This document shows, piece by piece, positions 53,054-59,859 of a DNA stretch of 59,870 nucleotides. The stretch is from an uncultured bacterium (GTDB lineage Bacteria; Pseudomonadota; Gammaproteobacteria; Burkholderiales; CAIKXV01). The stretch's first letter is position 1. Every line of letters starts with the position of its first letter. The position numbers and the translations under genes are program-made. Under the pieces are notes generated by a model that ran no database searches, had not been told where the DNA came from, and was given only the letters and a program-made list of their open reading frames with translations. The stretch is taken from positions 1 to 59,870 of the forward strand of contig CAIQON010000235.1 of assembly GCA_903873475.1 (NCBI GenBank), written 5' to 3'.

Positions 53054-54052
53054 TCACTCGGGCTGGAGGCCTGCCGCCTTCGCGATCGCCGCGAACTTCG
53101 GCACTTCCGCGCGCATGAACGATGCGAACTCGTCCGGCGTGCTGCTCACCGGGTCGAGACCCTGGGCATCGAGGAACTTGCGCATCTCGGGTTCGGCCAC
53201 CATCCTGCGCAGTGCATCGTTCAGGGTGTCGACGATCGGCTTCGGTACGCCAGCCGATGACACCAGCCCGAACCAGGTCGTGATGTCGTAGCCGGGCAGC
53301 CCCGACTCGGCTACTGTCGGTACGTCCTTCAGCTGGCTGGAGCGCGTGCGTCCGGTCACCGCGAGCGCACGCAGCTTGCCGTTGCGCGCATAGGGCAGCG
53401 CACCGGAAATGCCGCCGAAGTAGAAGTCGATCTGGCCGCCCATCAGGTCGGCCAGCACCGGGGCCGCACCCTTGTACGGCACATGCAGCACGTCGACCTT
53501 CGCCATCGCCTTGAACAGCTCGCCGGCCAGGTGCGGCGGCGCGCCCACGCCCGAGGAGCCGTAGGTCATCTGCCCGGGGCGGCTGCGCGCGAGCGCGATG
53601 AGTTCCTTCACGTTCTTCGCCGGCACCGATGGATGCGAGACCAGCAGGTACTGGTTCTGCGCGACCAGCCCGATCGCGGTGAAGTCGCGGTTCACGTCGT
53701 AGCCGAGCTTCTTGTAGAGGCTGGGCCCGATGGTGACGAAGCTGCCGGCGAGCAGCAGGCTGTAGCCGTCGGGCGCCGAGCGCGCAATGTTCTCCGCGGC
53801 GATGTGGCCACCCGCACCGGCACGGTTGTCGATCACCACCGGCTGGCCCAGCATCTCGGACAGGCGGCGGCCGACCGCGCGGGTGACGATATCGCTCGGC
53901 CCGCCAGCCGGGAAGGCGGCGACGAAGCGGATGGGCTTTGCCGGGAACGCCTGTGCCGACACGGCCAGCGGCAGCAACAGCGGCGCTGCCGCGCAGCAGA
54001 TCGCGAGCATCGCCGCTGTCGGCAAAGGGGATACGGTGGTCAGGGGTTTCAT
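53054..54052 (-). CDS. Bug/TctC-family periplasmic solute-binding protein (15 of 15)
   Basis: 332 aa. Signal peptide TAAMLAICCAAAPLLLPLAVSAQ. Landmarks: FPAKPIRFVAAFPAGGPSD, LGQPVVIDNRAGAGG, PDGYSLLLA, HVPYKGAAPVL. Its ATG shares one base with the stop of the hydrolase/decarboxylase fusion gene (TGATG), so it is translationally coupled to a catabolic operon. This makes it the member with the firmest functional link in the window. Confidence 0.92.
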   Translation of the reverse strand: MKPLTTVSPLPTAAMLAICCAAAPLLLPLAVSAQAFPAKPIRFVAAFPAGGPSDIVTRAVGRRLSEMLGQPVVIDNRAGAGGHIAAENIARSAPDGYSLLLAGSFVTIGPSLYKKLGYDVNRDFTAIGLVAQNQYLLVSHPSVPAKNVKELIALARSRPGQMTYGSSGVGAPPHLAGELFKAMAKVDVLHVPYKGAAPVLADLMGGQIDFYFGGISGALPYARNGKLRALAVTGRTRSSQLKDVPTVAESGLPGYDITTWFGLVSSAGVPKPIVDTLNDALRRMVAEPEMRKFLDAQGLDPVSSTPDEFASFMRAEVPKFAAIAKAAGLQPE

Positions 54053-55428
54053 CAGTCGTGTACCGGCTTCATCTGTGGCGGGAAGTCCGGCTCGAGCGGC
54101 ACGCGGAATGCGTTGACGATCGAGCCGAGCCCGAGGAAGTAGGCGCAGGTGATCGTGAGATCGGTGATGCACCGATCGCCCAGCTTCTGCTGCACCGAAG
54201 CGAAGGTGTCGTCGTCGACCTGGCCGTGGTGCCTGAACGCGCGCGCATAGGCGATGGCCGCCTTCTCCGTGTCGTCGGTCGTCGCCGGTACCTCGCCGGC
54301 GTTCAGCGCATCGAGTTCGGCCTGCGTGATGCCGGCCTTGCGTGCGGACGGCACATGGTGCGTCCAGGCGTACTGGTTGCCGCGCGCCATCGACAGGATC
54401 GCGAACTCGCGCGGCCGGCCCGACAGCGAGCTGCGGTAGCGCACGTACTCGCCCAGCGCAGCGAAGCAGCCGAGCCCGTCGGGCGCGTGGCCCATGCTGG
54501 CCAGGATGCCGGAGACGTAGCCGCGGGTGGCGGTGATGCGGTCGTAGACGAGCGCGAGCTCGGCGCTCTGCGCCGGATCTGCGGGCGTGATGCGCGGCGC
54601 AGCGCCGTCGGTCGCCGCCGGCCGCCCCAGGCCCGACAGGAAGCCGCGCAGCACGCGCGAGCACTCGTCCGGTATCTGCGCCGTCATGCCATGGCCACCG
54701 CCCGGGATGCCGACATAGGTGCAGTGGCGCAGGTGGGTGCGCATCAGCGCGTACTCGCTGTCCTCGACCGAAGGATCGGGCTCGGGCACGCACATCAGCA
54801 CCGGGAACTCGAAGGCTGCGAGTTTCTCCGGGAAGTAGTGGCTGGCCAGCAGCGGCACGAAGCGGCCGAGGAACTCGGGCGTCACGCCCTCCGCCGTATC
54901 GAGGTACCAGCGGATCATCTCGGGTGAGGCCTCGCCGATCCGGTCATGGACGGTCTCGTTCAGGAAATGGCGCACGCCGTTCCTGCCGACCCGCTCGAGC
55001 CAGTTGCCCTTCTTCGGCCGCGACGGATGGATGCCAGGCGTGGCGGCGAACAGCGCCAGCGAGGCGAAGCGCGACGGCGCCTGCAGCGCCGCGTCCATCG
55101 CGATGATGCCGCCCGCGGACGAGCCCATCACATGCGCCTGGGCGATGCCCAGATGATCGAACAGTTCGAGCAGGTCGAGCCCGAGCCGCTCCAGCGTCAG
55201 CGGCTGGTCGAGGCCGGCGTCGGACCGGCCGTGGCCGCGCAGGTCGGGCCGTACCACGCGGTAATCGCGCGCGAAATGGGGAACCCAGGCCTGCAGCCGC
55301 TCGGCGCTGCCCATGCCCGGATGTATCAGCACCAGCACCGGGGCTGGCTTCCAGGCGTCGGTGAAGTCGTCGACGCGATAGGCGAGGCGCACGCCGTCGC
55401 TGGCAGTGAAGTACTCCGGTGCGGTCAT
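54052..55428 (-). CDS. Alpha/beta hydrolase fused to a carboxymuconolactone-decarboxylase-like domain
   Basis: 458 aa. Residues 1-270 form an alpha/beta hydrolase (LIHPGMGSAER, PDLRGHGRSD, nucleophile elbow MGSSAGG, His in GGGHGM). Residues about 285-458 form a CMD/AhpD-like domain (REFAILSMARGNQYAWTHHV then PSARKAGI). The order matches PcaL, the enol-lactonase/decarboxylase fusion of the beta-ketoadipate pathway. The CMD half lacks the CxxC pair (Asn and Ala at those places), so it is not a peroxidase type. Sits between a VOC protein (8-nt gap) and a Bug gene (1-nt overlap). Confidence 0.88.
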   Translation of the reverse strand: MTAPEYFTASDGVRLAYRVDDFTDAWKPAPVLVLIHPGMGSAERLQAWVPHFARDYRVVRPDLRGHGRSDAGLDQPLTLERLGLDLLELFDHLGIAQAHVMGSSAGGIIAMDAALQAPSRFASLALFAATPGIHPSRPKKGNWLERVGRNGVRHFLNETVHDRIGEASPEMIRWYLDTAEGVTPEFLGRFVPLLASHYFPEKLAAFEFPVLMCVPEPDPSVEDSEYALMRTHLRHCTYVGIPGGGHGMTAQIPDECSRVLRGFLSGLGRPAATDGAAPRITPADPAQSAELALVYDRITATRGYVSGILASMGHAPDGLGCFAALGEYVRYRSSLSGRPREFAILSMARGNQYAWTHHVPSARKAGITQAELDALNAGEVPATTDDTEKAAIAYARAFRHHGQVDDDTFASVQQKLGDRCITDLTITCAYFLGLGSIVNAFRVPLEPDFPPQMKPVHD

Positions 55429-55436
55429 CGCCAGCC

Positions 55437-55853
55437 TCAGTGCGCGTCGTCGGCCAGTTGCGCCAGTTCGACCAGGCAGTTGCCGGTGGCCGACGGGTCG
55501 AGGAAGGCGATGCGCGCGCCGCCATGGCCGATGCGCGGCACCGCGTCGAGCAGCGGGATACCCTTGGCCTTGAGTTCCTCGAGCGCCTCGTCGATGTCCT
55601 CGACCTCGAAGCAGATATGGTTCAGGCCGCCCTTGCCTTCGGCGACCATCTTTGCCTGCTTGCTGTCGGGCGTCGTGCCGGCGATCAGTTCGACCATCGA
55701 ATCGCCGACCGGGTAGAACGCGAGCTCGACCGGACGACCGGGCATCTTCTCGGTGCCGGTGAGCTTGATGCCGAAGCAGTCTTCCCAGAGCGCGCGGCTC
55801 TGCTCGAGGTTTCCGACGACGATGCCGACGTGTTCGATGCGCTTGATCTTCAT
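55437..55853 (-). CDS. VOC-superfamily protein, methylmalonyl-CoA epimerase-like
   Basis: 138 aa, two beta-alpha-beta-beta-beta modules. Metal-ligand candidates are His8 (RIEHVGIVV), Glu in SMVELIAG, His in GGLNHICFEV and Glu in NCLVELAQ. DIDEALEELKAKGIP is the typical linker of methylmalonyl-CoA epimerases; related glyoxalase- or dioxygenase-type roles are possible. Same strand and 105 nt downstream of the MmgE/PrpD gene. Confidence 0.88.
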   Translation of the reverse strand: MKIKRIEHVGIVVGNLEQSRALWEDCFGIKLTGTEKMPGRPVELAFYPVGDSMVELIAGTTPDSKQAKMVAEGKGGLNHICFEVEDIDEALEELKAKGIPLLDAVPRIGHGGARIAFLDPSATGNCLVELAQLADDAH

Positions 55854-55958
55854 GGAGGGCCCGGTGCGATCGCAGGTGCGGTGAAGGAGGCGGTGATAGT
55901 GCGCCTCGGGTGGATCATTTTCAACGGCACGGCCATGCGTGCGCAGTCCCGGCGCAGC

Positions 55959-57284
55959 TCACACCCGTGCCAGCACGCCCGCATCGGTGGCTGTCTCCAG
56001 ATTCCACATCAACCCGATCATGCGGCTGGCGTCCGCGTCGTGCCTCCCGTATGCCACCAGGCTGCGGAACTTCTCCTCGAGCTCGGCATCGGTCAGCGGC
56101 ACTTCCGCGCTGCCCTTTGCATGTTCGATGAAGGTCTCGTGCCGGGTGCCGTCCTTCATCACCACGCACACCGATGCGGCATCCTTCGCCATCGTGTCCG
56201 AGCAGAGCAGCCGGGCACGGCGGCGCATATCCGTCACGGCCAGGTCGCGTACCACCGCATCGGTGAACTGCTGTACGCCGGCCGCACCCTGCACCATCGC
56301 CACGGCGATGCAGTGCTCCGCGGATACCTTCGAACGCATGCCGTCGGCCGGCTCCGGGCGTGACATGATGACCTGCACCGCCGGGTTCACGGTGACCTCG
56401 ACGCAGTCGATGTCGCCCGCGCGGATGGCGTGGCGCTCGCGCAGCAGCAGGCAGCCGTCGATCACCGGATGCACGACGATGCCGCAGGGATAGGGCTTGA
56501 ACGCATTGGCCGCGAGCTCCCAGGTCACGCCGAGCGTGTCGGTGAGCGCGGACCAGTCGCAGCGGGTCGTGAATGCGTTGCCGAAGCCGCGCGGTGCCTC
56601 TAGCGCGCAGGCGGAACTGGCGATGCCCCTGGAGGCGTACCACGCAGCCATGAAGCCGCTGCGTGCGGCGTGGCCCATGTTGAACATGCGGGTCGGGCTG
56701 CCCAGCATCTCCGACAACCCGGCCGACTGGCTGGCCGCCATGCCGATCGCATAGGCGGCCTGCGTCTCGTCGAGCCTGAGCAGCCGCGCGCAGGCCGCCG
56801 CAGCGCCGATCACGCCGCAGGTCGAGGTGACATGCCATCCGCCAGCGTAGTGCTCCGGCGAGATCGCGTTGCCGACCTTGCATGCCGCCTCGATGCCGAT
56901 GACGAACGCATGCATGAAGGCCTCGCCCGGAACCTGCAGGTGCTCTGCCAGCGCCAGCGTGGCCGAGGCTACCGGTACCGACGGATGGATCACCGTCTGC
57001 AGGTGGGTATCGTCGAAGTCGAGCACGCTCGAGGACACGCCGTTGATCACGGCGGCGGTGGCCACATCGAAGCGGCGCCCGCGATTGATCACCGTCGCCT
57101 GCCCCGGCCCGGAGAACGTAGCCAGTGACTCGATCGCCAGTTCGACCGAGGGTGCGTTCGAACCGCCGATCGCGCAGCCCAGCCAGTTGAGCAGCGAGCG
57201 CTTCGCGTCATGCCGGACGCTGTCCGGGACGTCGGCCCAGCTCGAGGCCGCGATGAAGCGGGCGAGCCGGGCTGTCGCGCTCAT
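55959..57284 (-). CDS. MmgE/PrpD-family protein
   Basis: 441 aa, complete. Landmarks: LLNWLGCAIGGS, SSSVLDFDDTHLQTVIHPS, FNMGHAARSGFMAAWYA, AFKPYPCGIVVHPVIDG, AKGSAEVPLTDAELEEKFRSL. It is clearly different from the copy at 27.8 kb in the substrate loops. It would dehydrate, decarboxylate or epimerise a carboxylic acid. It overlaps the upstream deacetylase-like gene by 4 nt, showing tight coupling. Confidence 0.9.
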   Translation of the reverse strand: MSATARLARFIAASSWADVPDSVRHDAKRSLLNWLGCAIGGSNAPSVELAIESLATFSGPGQATVINRGRRFDVATAAVINGVSSSVLDFDDTHLQTVIHPSVPVASATLALAEHLQVPGEAFMHAFVIGIEAACKVGNAISPEHYAGGWHVTSTCGVIGAAAACARLLRLDETQAAYAIGMAASQSAGLSEMLGSPTRMFNMGHAARSGFMAAWYASRGIASSACALEAPRGFGNAFTTRCDWSALTDTLGVTWELAANAFKPYPCGIVVHPVIDGCLLLRERHAIRAGDIDCVEVTVNPAVQVIMSRPEPADGMRSKVSAEHCIAVAMVQGAAGVQQFTDAVVRDLAVTDMRRRARLLCSDTMAKDAASVCVVMKDGTRHETFIEHAKGSAEVPLTDAELEEKFRSLVAYGRHDADASRMIGLMWNLETATDAGVLARV

Positions 57285-58177
57285 CGCGCGTGCAGCTGCT
57301 GTTCGGCGGGCAGCGCGGCGTAGTGCGCGGCGATGTCCTTCGGCATCGCTACCCAGACATCGTCGCGGTGCGACAGCATGTGCTGCAGCGCCCGCCGCAG
57401 CCGGGCCAGCCGGTAGGGTTGCCCGACGACGAAGGTATGGATCGAGATCGCGTAGACGAGTGGCGTGTCCTTCGAATTGCGCAGCATCTCGTCGAAGTTG
57501 TCGACCAGCATCTCGGCATACTCCGCGCCGGTGTTGCGCCGGTAGACGACGGCGGGCTGGTCGTTGAGTTCGATCGGATAGGGCATCGCCAGCATGCTTC
57601 CGGTCGCCGACTTCACCCAGAACGGCTGCTCGTCGCAGATGCCCCAGTCCATGCAGTACTGGTAGCCGCTCTCGGCCAGCAGATCGGTCGTGTGCTCGCT
57701 CGGCGTGAGGTAGGGCGACATCCAGCCCACCGGCTTGACGCCGTTGCGCGCGGTGAAGGTACGGGTGACGTCCTGCACCATCTCGCGCTCCTGCTCGAGC
57801 GTCATCTCGATCTGGCGCTCGACCTGGTTGCGGCCGTGCGCGATCAGTTCGTCGCCGCGCTTCACGTGCGCCTCGAGCACCTCGGGGCAGTGGTCGTAGA
57901 TCGCGGTGTTCGCGATCACGCCCACCGGCAGGGCGAGTTCATCGAACAGGTTCATCAGCCGCCAGGCGCCGACGCGGTTGCCGTATTCGCGCCACAGCCA
58001 GCTGCGCTGGCTCCAGGGCAGCGTCGGACGGTCGAGGTCGGGGCCGGAGTTCTGGCCCCAGGGGAAGTGCTCGACGTTGACCGAAACGTAGAGCGCGAGG
58101 CGCTTGCCGCCGGGCCAGGTGAACGCGGGCCTGCGCGAGACCGGCGAATAGCCGAACCGGTCGGGTTCCTTCAGCAT
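57281..58177 (-). CDS. Polysaccharide-deacetylase-family (PuuE/allantoinase-like) protein
   Basis: 298 aa, NodB-homology fold without signal peptide. NVEHFPWG replaces the usual acidic motif 1; motif 2 reads RGDELIAHGRNQVE, retaining one His but not the second His of H-x3-H; motif 4 reads SIHTFVVGQPYRL, as in PuuE-type enzymes. Metal binding may therefore be altered. Cytosolic members often hydrolyse cyclic amides or N-acyl compounds. First enzyme gene after the binding protein in the cluster. Confidence 0.85.
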   Translation of the reverse strand: MLKEPDRFGYSPVSRRPAFTWPGGKRLALYVSVNVEHFPWGQNSGPDLDRPTLPWSQRSWLWREYGNRVGAWRLMNLFDELALPVGVIANTAIYDHCPEVLEAHVKRGDELIAHGRNQVERQIEMTLEQEREMVQDVTRTFTARNGVKPVGWMSPYLTPSEHTTDLLAESGYQYCMDWGICDEQPFWVKSATGSMLAMPYPIELNDQPAVVYRRNTGAEYAEMLVDNFDEMLRNSKDTPLVYAISIHTFVVGQPYRLARLRRALQHMLSHRDDVWVAMPKDIAAHYAALPAEQQLHAR

Positions 58178-58206
58178 GGTGTCCTCGGTGTGTTGTTCGG
58201 GGTGGT

Positions 58207-59127
58207 TCAGATCGACGGCGGGTCTTCGCGCACGATGCGCTCGGCGAACTGCGGGTCGACATAGTCTTCATATGTGCCGGGCTTCGAGATCGCGCCGCAC
58301 GACAGCATCGCGTCGCGCTTCCACTCGAGCCCGGCGCGCTGGACGATCGGGTCGGTGCTCCAGACGCCTGTGGCCTTGTAGCCGTCGAAGCATGCGGCCA
58401 GCATGTCGTGTGGGACATCGGGCAGGTAGCCGGACACGACCCCGGCCAGTTCGGCGCCCGAGTGCGCCGCGATCCACTTCTGGGTGCGGTGCATCGCCCG
58501 CGTCACGCCCAGCACCGTGTCGGGATGGCTGCGGATGAACGCACGCGTCGTGTTGAGCGTGGTGTAGCAGGCCAGGCCGCGGTCGGAGGCGCGGTACCAG
58601 ACATGGCCGATGCCCTCTTCGATGGCCGCCTGCGCGAGCGGCTGGAACACCTGGATCACGTCGACCTCGCCTGCGCGCAGGGCAGCCACGTTCTCGGCCA
58701 TCGTGCGCTCGGGCGCGCGAAGCACCTGCCCGGGATCGATGCCGGCCAGCACGAGGTCGCGCTGCAGGCAGATCCAGGGCGTGGGCACTTCGCTCACCGT
58801 GGCGACCCGCGGACCGACCAGGTGCTGCATCGTGAAGCCCGGGTTCGGCGCGCGCCCGAGCACGAAGAACGGATCGCGGCCGACCACTTCGCAGAACGCC
58901 ACCGAATCGGACGCGGGGTCCTTGTCGAGCGCGATCATCAGCCGCATCGGGCCGCCCCACGACACCTCGGCGCCGCCGGCCGCAAGGATCTGGATCGTCT
59001 CGGCCGAGGTCTTCGGCGTGATCATGCCGACATCCAGGCCTTCGGCCCGCCAGGCGCCGAGTTCGGCGGCGGCGTAGAAGGGCGCATAGAACAGCGCACG
59101 GAAGTTCTCGATCAGGGTGAGTTTCAT
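58207..59127 (-). CDS. THI5/NMT1/SsuA-like substrate-binding protein without a signal peptide
   Basis: 306 aa. The N-terminus MKLTLIENFRALFYAPFYAA then ELGAWRAEGLDV is the THI5/NMT1-like fold of ABC substrate-binding proteins, starting directly at the first strand with no signal sequence. Thus it may be cytoplasmic: a sensor, an enzyme of the THI5 type, or a protein whose start lies upstream (no in-frame candidate was found). GGAEVSWGGPMRLMIA and GEVDVIQVFQPLAQAA are conserved ligand regions. No ABC permease or ATPase is nearby. Confidence 0.8.
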   Translation of the reverse strand: MKLTLIENFRALFYAPFYAAAELGAWRAEGLDVGMITPKTSAETIQILAAGGAEVSWGGPMRLMIALDKDPASDSVAFCEVVGRDPFFVLGRAPNPGFTMQHLVGPRVATVSEVPTPWICLQRDLVLAGIDPGQVLRAPERTMAENVAALRAGEVDVIQVFQPLAQAAIEEGIGHVWYRASDRGLACYTTLNTTRAFIRSHPDTVLGVTRAMHRTQKWIAAHSGAELAGVVSGYLPDVPHDMLAACFDGYKATGVWSTDPIVQRAGLEWKRDAMLSCGAISKPGTYEDYVDPQFAERIVREDPPSI

Positions 59128-59265
59128 CGGGGCCTGTGCTGCGGACGATCGGAGCGAGGTCGGTGATCCTACAATGCATCACGGGGGCGTGCTGACGGGC
59201 ACGCCCGACGCCGGACTTACAATAGAATGCGGCCACCTCGCGCCGCACGAACCGGAGGAACCACG
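59128..59265. promoter_or_regulatory. Divergent promoter region between the minus-strand cluster and the selenoprotein-like gene
   Basis: 138 bp. On the plus strand TACAAT (59218-59223) and the overlapping TAGAAT (59223-59228) lie 43-48 nt before ATG 59266; a second TACAAT is at 59170-59175. On the minus strand TAGGAT (complement of 59166-59171) could serve the binding-protein gene. CGGAGGAA is the ribosome binding site of the plus-strand gene. Confidence 0.5.
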
Positions 59266-59859
59266 ATGTCCCGCCTCGATCCACTGCCCATCGGCGCAGT
59301 GCCCGAATTGCAGGAAACGTTCGAGAAGCACCTGGCCTCGAACGGTTACGTCCCCAACAGCCAGTTGATCATGCAGCGCCGCCCGAAGCTGGTGAAGGCG
59401 TGGCGCGTGCTTTCGCAGGCCGTGTTCGATCCCGATGGCGAGGTGAGCATCGCGTTCAAGCGCCTGCTCGCCTATGTCGTCGCGCGTACCCACGGCTGCC
59501 ATTACTGAATGGCGCACAACGCTGGGGGGTCTCTCCAGCAGGGTATTCCGGAAGACAAGCTGGCGCAGGTGTGGGAGTACCCCACCAGCCCGTTGTTTCC
59601 CGAGGCCGAGAAGGTCGCCATCGAGTTCGCCATCGCTGCGGCGTCTCAGCCGAACGACGTGACGGACGAACTGTTCGACCGGATGAAGCAGCACTGGGAC
59701 GAAGGCCAGATCGTCGAGATCACGGCCCTGATCTCCTACTTCGGCTTCATGAACCGGTGGAACGACACGATGGCCACGCCGCTCGAGGACAAGCCGGCGG
59801 CCGAGGCGCAGGCACACATCGCCAGCCATGGCTGGGAGCTGGGCAAGCACGGCAGGTAG
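59266..59859 (+). CDS. Carboxymuconolactone-decarboxylase/AhpD-like protein with in-frame TGA, probable selenoprotein (CxxU)
   Basis: 197 aa if TGA 59506-59508 is read as selenocysteine 81. ATG 59266 has a CGGAGGAA ribosome binding site. Before the TGA: LLAYVVARTHG-C78-H-Y; after it: M-A-H84-N-A-GGSLQQG, continuing without a break through IEFAIAAAS and FFGFM-type CMD helices to TAG. The family redox motif is GCxYCxAH, so the TGA replaces exactly the second, peroxidatic-type Cys. A hairpin with a GU loop follows at the distance required for a bacterial SECIS. Conventional calling would give an 80-aa and a 116-aa ORF. The alternative is a nonsense mutation. Expected activity: thiol/selenol peroxidase or disulfide reductase of the AhpD type. 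Divergent from the catabolic cluster. Confidence 0.85.
59521..59539 (+). promoter_or_regulatory. Candidate bacterial SECIS hairpin
   Basis: GCTGGGGGGTCTCTCCAGC folds as a 5-bp Watson-Crick stem (GCTGG/CCAGC) that extends by G-U, G-C and G-U pairs to a small apical loop containing G-U. The loop is about 20 nt after the TGA. Bacterial SECIS elements sit within the coding region just after UGA with a GU in the apical loop, bound by SelB. The position fits; the fold was drawn by eye. Confidence 0.65.

Follow-up and report, generated by a model that had tools for sequence, protein, structure and literature searches.

At the 3′ end of contig CAIQON010000235.1 from an uncultured Burkholderiales bacterium (CAIKXV01; assembly GCA_903873475.1), whose forward strand was analysed over 59,870 nucleotides (nt; the window), lies a reading frame that starts with ATG and is interrupted solely by a TGA codon (59506-59508) before it reaches a TAG, 11 bases beyond which the contig ends (Table 1). 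The frame is very likely a single gene, in which the TGA is decoded as selenocysteine (Sec), and would encode a 197-residue redox protein of the AhpD/carboxymuconolactone decarboxylase (CMD) fold with a Cys78-x-x-Sec81 motif. When TGA is translated as Sec, the CxxU motif appears in the context C78-H-Y-U81-M-A-H84; the protein matches the Pfam model PF02627 (CMD) with 28.9 bits, over the gathering cut-off of 23, and structure prediction yields the AhpD/CMD fold with confidence. Under the standard code, the gene is visible just as an open reading frame (ORF) of 116 amino acids (59509-59859) behind the TGA. A preliminary description of this DNA had recognised a frame that is whole but for one TGA at the second Cys of a CxxC motif, and the 197 residues that can be read confirm this. 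The entire window was scanned crudely for TGA codons whose surroundings, in a single frame, have a coding-like composition; among the eight candidates, this TGA came first, tied with one other, and by eye several of the rest resemble ordinary gene ends.

Table 1. Features of the predicted selenoprotein gene, in window coordinates
Feature	Position	Strand	Remarks
Shine-Dalgarno-like GGAGGA	59254..59259	+	6 nt before ATG; seen in the sequence, function putative
Predicted selenoprotein gene, AhpD/CMD fold	59266..59859	+	197 residues including Sec81; TAG at 59857-59859
CxxU motif Cys78-His79-Tyr80-Sec81	59497..59508	+	TGA codon at 59506-59508
Predicted bacterial selenocysteine insertion sequence (SECIS) hairpin	59521..59539	+	19 nt, stem of 7-8 base pairs, short loop

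Comparison with related genes revealed an exchange of TGA, Cys and Ser at residue 81. After removal of identical copies and fragments, 50 distinct genes span this residue, the window gene included; 38 have TGA, ten Cys and two Ser, and none of the 38 aligned spans contains an in-frame stop other than the TGA at codon 81. These 38 loci stem from many separate assemblies and reach down to about 55% identity, and Cys78, Tyr80 and His84 are identical in all of them as well as in the 39 rows of alignment A2. All 120 database proteins among the matches listed (1708 in all) possess Cys at position 81. Full-length identity to these listed Cys relatives reaches 72%, and some of them bear the source name 'uncharacterized peroxidase-related enzyme' or carboxymuconolactone decarboxylase family protein. 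Cys had been expected in place of the TGA in homologues, which holds for these 120 proteins and for ten of the 12 distinct non-TGA loci, the other two having Ser. Four rows were dropped from the comparison: L080, which does not cover residue 81, L081, which is weaker than the limit of E 1e-10, L052b, a fragment of a gene that was in the set already, and L042b, which is part of the gene entered as L073b. One Cys relative, L047 (genome G109), contains a TAG and a TAA within the frame and is probably decayed.

Judging from the substitution pattern, the parts of the frame before and after the TGA both evolve as coding sequence. In comparisons of the window gene with nine relatives, third codon positions account for the largest share of differences before and after the TGA, and the nonsynonymous rate (dN) is below the synonymous rate (dS) on both sides in 9/9 cases; for L048, the dN/dS values are 0.144/0.837 before and 0.119/0.643 after the TGA. 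The earlier statement that coding continues past the TGA to the TAG is therefore upheld by all nine relatives. In a tree of 87 proteins, which includes 39 of the 120 listed protein matches (38 are in the structure alignment) and from which L047 and L075b were also left out, the Sec label needs seven changes, at least five of which are forced by well-supported branches. P0002-P0007, the nearest Cys proteins at 68-72% identity, fall within the Sec-rich part of this tree. Since the tree leaves 12 of its 84 inner branches open, was rooted at the midpoint and has long branches that meet, a repeated exchange between Sec and Cys is claimed without a direction. The two Ser-containing genes, L043 and L046, group together on the tree and have the motif CxxS, which in L046 is SxxS.

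The predicted SECIS hairpin starts 12 nt after the TGA and is a conserved feature of the Sec form, its distance from the TGA being constant across the 38 TGA loci. On average, 7.71 of the eight stem pairs are formed in the 38 TGA loci (eight pairs in 28 loci, seven in nine and six in one), compared with 4.75 in synonymous-codon shuffles of these loci and 3.17 (2 to 4) in the same columns of the 12 Cys or Ser genes; an earlier non-TGA set, which had 13 rows with L042b included, gave a mean of 3.23. None of the ten Cys loci with examined DNA has the conserved hairpin. For the window gene alone, 0.3% of 20000 synonymous shuffles form all eight pairs. Furthermore, 96.7% of the cells pair in a covariation analysis of 23 distinct rows, whose score of 0.296 exceeds that of the shuffles (0.161; reached in 0/500) and of slid registers (at most 0.079). 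The loop G (59529, column 24) is identical in 38/38 TGA loci. A scan with Rfam returned two miRNA matches far under their gathering scores, which are chance matches.

The genome also encodes the machinery that is required for Sec insertion. selA (576 bits), selB (423 bits) and a tRNA-Sec gene (72.9 bits) adjoin on contig C368 of the same assembly, selD (410 bits) is located on contig C237 and contains an in-frame TGA of its own, and ARAGORN confirmed the tRNA-SeC with anticodon tca; all four genes selA, selB, selC and selD, for which a check had been suggested, are thus present. L014, a match over the Rfam cut-off, was considered as a second tRNA-Sec and rejected, as it is a tRNA-Ser. A second CMD protein of the same genome (L002) is 60% identical to the window protein, has TGA at the same codon and is cut by a contig end, and a PrdB-like predicted selenoprotein (L091) has the motif VUPNC. 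SelD itself (L022) is a predicted selenoprotein with the motif GGGUGCK. A third, distant CMD-like gene (L007:1246-1818) has its TGA in the context DCHYUGN, followed by the hairpin CCGCAC-AGTTC-GTGCGG; L007 has no Pfam match and scores 44.5 bits with NF053654 (cut-off 310). L004 was rejected as a selenoprotein, as its TGA is a normal terminator and the protein is without CxxC. A search of the genome with one formate dehydrogenase alpha model (TIGR01553) gave sub-cut-off matches, none with an in-frame stop; on the basis of this single model, the genome seems to reserve Sec for other enzymes.

The distribution of the gene was analysed in 399 genomes of the same order, its own included, with a match limit of E<=1e-30. 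Matches were found in 24 genomes, 20 of which have the TGA form. selB reaches its cut-off in 104 of the 399 genomes, which comprise 18 of the 20 TGA-form genomes and 86 of the remaining 379 (Fisher p ~1e-9, in a test that ignores kinship). Outside the order, 16 of 369 genomes of the class and seven of 398 of the phylum match, one genome being in both sets, and none has an in-frame stop; within these samples, the Sec form is therefore seen in one Betaproteobacterial order only. Of the 29 public relatives, most bear the title Betaproteobacteria or Burkholderiales bacterium, and the other titles are Proteobacteria, uncultured proteobacterium, Polaromonas, Rhodospirillales (one weak match) and Bordetella parapertussis (metagenome bins). 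The last label looks doubtful for the metagenome contigs L054, L065 and L080, which carry genes of this environmental branch.

Several observations weigh against decoding of the TGA as Sec or weaken the evidence for it. The protein database is probably poor in Sec forms by construction, so that Cys in all 120 listed proteins is to be expected. The genomes of L043 and L046, which have Ser at the Sec position, both possess selB, and no selB was found in two genomes with the TGA form, G144 and G330, which are 84% and 83% complete. The Fisher test overstates independence, as a single genus accounts for 11 of the 20 TGA genomes, the window's own included. Not all properties of the hairpin stand out either: stem pairs that changed on both sides number three, which 15 of 500 shuffles reach, and further pair types, one of five covariation measures, number six compared with a shuffle mean of 6.8 (500/500). 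The preliminary description had placed a 19-nt hairpin at the correct distance from the TGA, and its conservation with compensatory changes across 38 loci supports this; the folding energy of the window's single hairpin, however, is ordinary (z -0.49), being equalled or bettered by 59 of 200 shuffles. Finally, a start codon directly follows the TGA in all 38 loci (ATG in 37, GTG in the other), an arrangement that could look like a restart, and the source assembly is fragmented (407 contigs) with a contamination of 5.7%.

The start codon behind the TGA would also fit with two proteins, in which translation stops at 59506 and restarts at ATG 59509 to give a split or two-subunit protein, and the 116-amino-acid ORF would then be the second of these. 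However, Met82 is nearly invariant (at least 90%) in alignment A2, and the 38 database rows of this alignment carry Cys and are read straight through; the ATG is thus explained by the protein. A split would also separate both residues of the redox motif, and a restart leaves unexplained the exchange of TGA and Cys at a redox-motif position, the covarying hairpin and the co-occurrence with selB, which makes this explanation very improbable. The state of the assembly could be taken to indicate a pseudogene or a sequencing error, with the TGA being a nonsense mutation or a miscalled TGC or TGG, but the recurrence of the same TGA in 38 distinct, divergent loci from many assemblies and a dN that remains below dS after the TGA leave hardly any room for this. 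Any read-through of the TGA would preserve the frame, including generic readthrough or decoding as Trp. Relatives, however, have Cys and twice Ser at this site, never Trp; TGA is the terminal stop in six of the seven larger window ORFs checked, and both the Sec genes and a conserved hairpin are found. Decoding as Trp or generic readthrough is therefore extremely unlikely.

AhpD-like and CMD selenoproteins with a CxxU motif are not new, as the preliminary description had pointed out for marine metagenomes; the original reports describe them in more detail since 2005, in the Sargasso Sea (PMC1088965) and in the 2008 Global Ocean Sampling (GOS) study (PMC2398784), and they also appear in reviews from 2022 (PMC9312934) and 2026 (PMC13188914). 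The classes named in these texts are AhpD-like 1 (COG2128/TIGR01926), AhpD-like 2 and CMD domain-containing (PF02627) (PMC1088965, PMC2398784), and TIGR01926 is the model given for the AhpD-like protein (PMC13188914). As far as these sources describe them, the published AhpD-like selenoproteins share with the window protein the CMD/AhpD family, a CxxU motif with Sec in second place, and a predicted SECIS element 3′ of the UGA with a conserved loop G. In contrast to members of TIGR01926, the window protein scores 56.6 bits, under the cut-off of 81.8, and, unlike the published proteins, the Sec form of this branch was seen in just a single order among the genomes sampled. Two further models named (seleno)proteins, NF053654 (YciW-related) and NF041238 (AhpD_rel_CFYUT), are related to the window protein (E 2.5e-23 and 4.2e-4), but it is a member of neither (82.8 bits vs a cut-off of 310, and 19.7 vs 175). 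Because CxxU AhpD-like proteins are already published and the scores lie below the model cut-offs, the gene is assigned to a new branch of a known group. This branch is set apart by model scores, not by published sequences, and may overlap with 'AhpD-like 2' or 'CMD'. A search of the open-access literature on selenoproteins together with Burkholderiales yielded nothing on this family.

The surroundings of the gene were compared in 27 public loci with no more than 5 kb of flanking sequence (ORFs from a crude caller, grouped into families at E 1e-15 and >35% identity), and window ORFs between 48162 and 59127 were searched against Pfam (nine large ORFs) and NCBIfam (ten). Beside the gene lies a minus-strand cluster, which encodes a PcaDC-like hydrolase-CMD fusion, MmgE/PrpD, a PuuE-like protein and an SsuA-like binding protein. 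The fused alpha/beta hydrolase-CMD protein (54055-55428, minus strand) scores 104.9 bits against a cut-off of 390. The five minus-strand ORFs at 54052-59127 share no family with ORFs of the 27 loci, and two loci whose proteins are 97-98% identical have different neighbours. A functional link to this divergent catabolic cluster, which had been suggested, thus finds no support in the 27 loci compared and is rejected; what stands of the preliminary description is the predicted selenoprotein, supported by Cys in relatives, the conserved hairpin and the selA, selB, selC and selD genes.

A same-strand ORF ends within 150 nt upstream of the gene in 15 of the 27 public loci. The commonest kind directly upstream is a TctC-type binding protein (7/27: L057, L059, L060, L061, L065, L071 and L072), an assignment made by clustering and confirmed by Pfam for L057, L061, L065 and L072; as TctC-type genes recur widely in these loci, no function is drawn from them, and the window gene itself is without such a neighbour. 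Other upstream neighbours that were tested are mixed (DUF1223, TauD, FlK thioesterase, FAA hydrolase, thiamine pyrophosphate (TPP) enzyme and TetR). In six loci (L069, L071, L072, L073, L076 and L077), a PrdB-like gene with an in-frame TGA (PVUPNCTC) lies directly 3′ of the Sec-CMD gene, for example the PrdB/GrdB-like gene at L076:5616-6824, and in all six it is followed by two families, which were recognised in L077 as farnesyl diphosphate synthase and dxs. L074, the seventh member of the clade, lacks the PrdB-like arrangement at this position. The Sec-CMD and PrdB/GrdB-like genes likely form a two-selenoprotein unit. The genome of the window contains a 55% identical relative of the PrdB/GrdB-like gene, the above-mentioned L091, with one TGA. 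Adjacent selenoprotein genes, including Prx-like with AhpD-like, are mentioned in PMC2398784 and PMC13188914.

The nearest solved relative is the reductive debrominase Bmp8 (PDB 6ohi, 6ohj; 28-29% identity), which shares the redox motif and the fold, the latter as predicted for the window protein, and which has Cys where the window gene has TGA in the second Cys codon. During synthesis of the protein, SelB together with Sec-tRNA(UCA) would bind the hairpin and deliver Sec at the UGA. As a selenolate, Sec81 would then attack an oxidised substrate, which may be a peroxide or, as in Bmp8, a carbon-halogen bond; Cys78 would resolve the selenium intermediate by forming a selenenylsulfide, and a cellular dithiol system would reset the enzyme. 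A 2019 paper on the mechanism of Bmp8 reportedly likened this enzyme to deiodinases. The branch could be imagined as a Sec-armed Bmp8, that is, a Sec-dependent reductive dehalogenase on an AhpD scaffold in Betaproteobacteria, with a chemistry that parallels the thyroid deiodinases on an unrelated fold, but this seems rather unlikely. Hosts of such a putative Sec-Bmp8 would also use the PrdB-like selenoprotein, which is encoded next door in some relatives.

The gene is hidden under the standard code, and no matching curated AhpD-like (seleno)protein model reaches its cut-off. With its identification, Betaproteobacteria gain a branch of predicted selenoproteins. As the Sec, Cys and Ser forms swap at least five times on the tree, this branch lends itself naturally to tests of what one enzyme gains from Sec over Cys. 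Should the relationship to Bmp8 extend to function, this would suggest that these environmental bacteria carry out dehalogenation with Sec.
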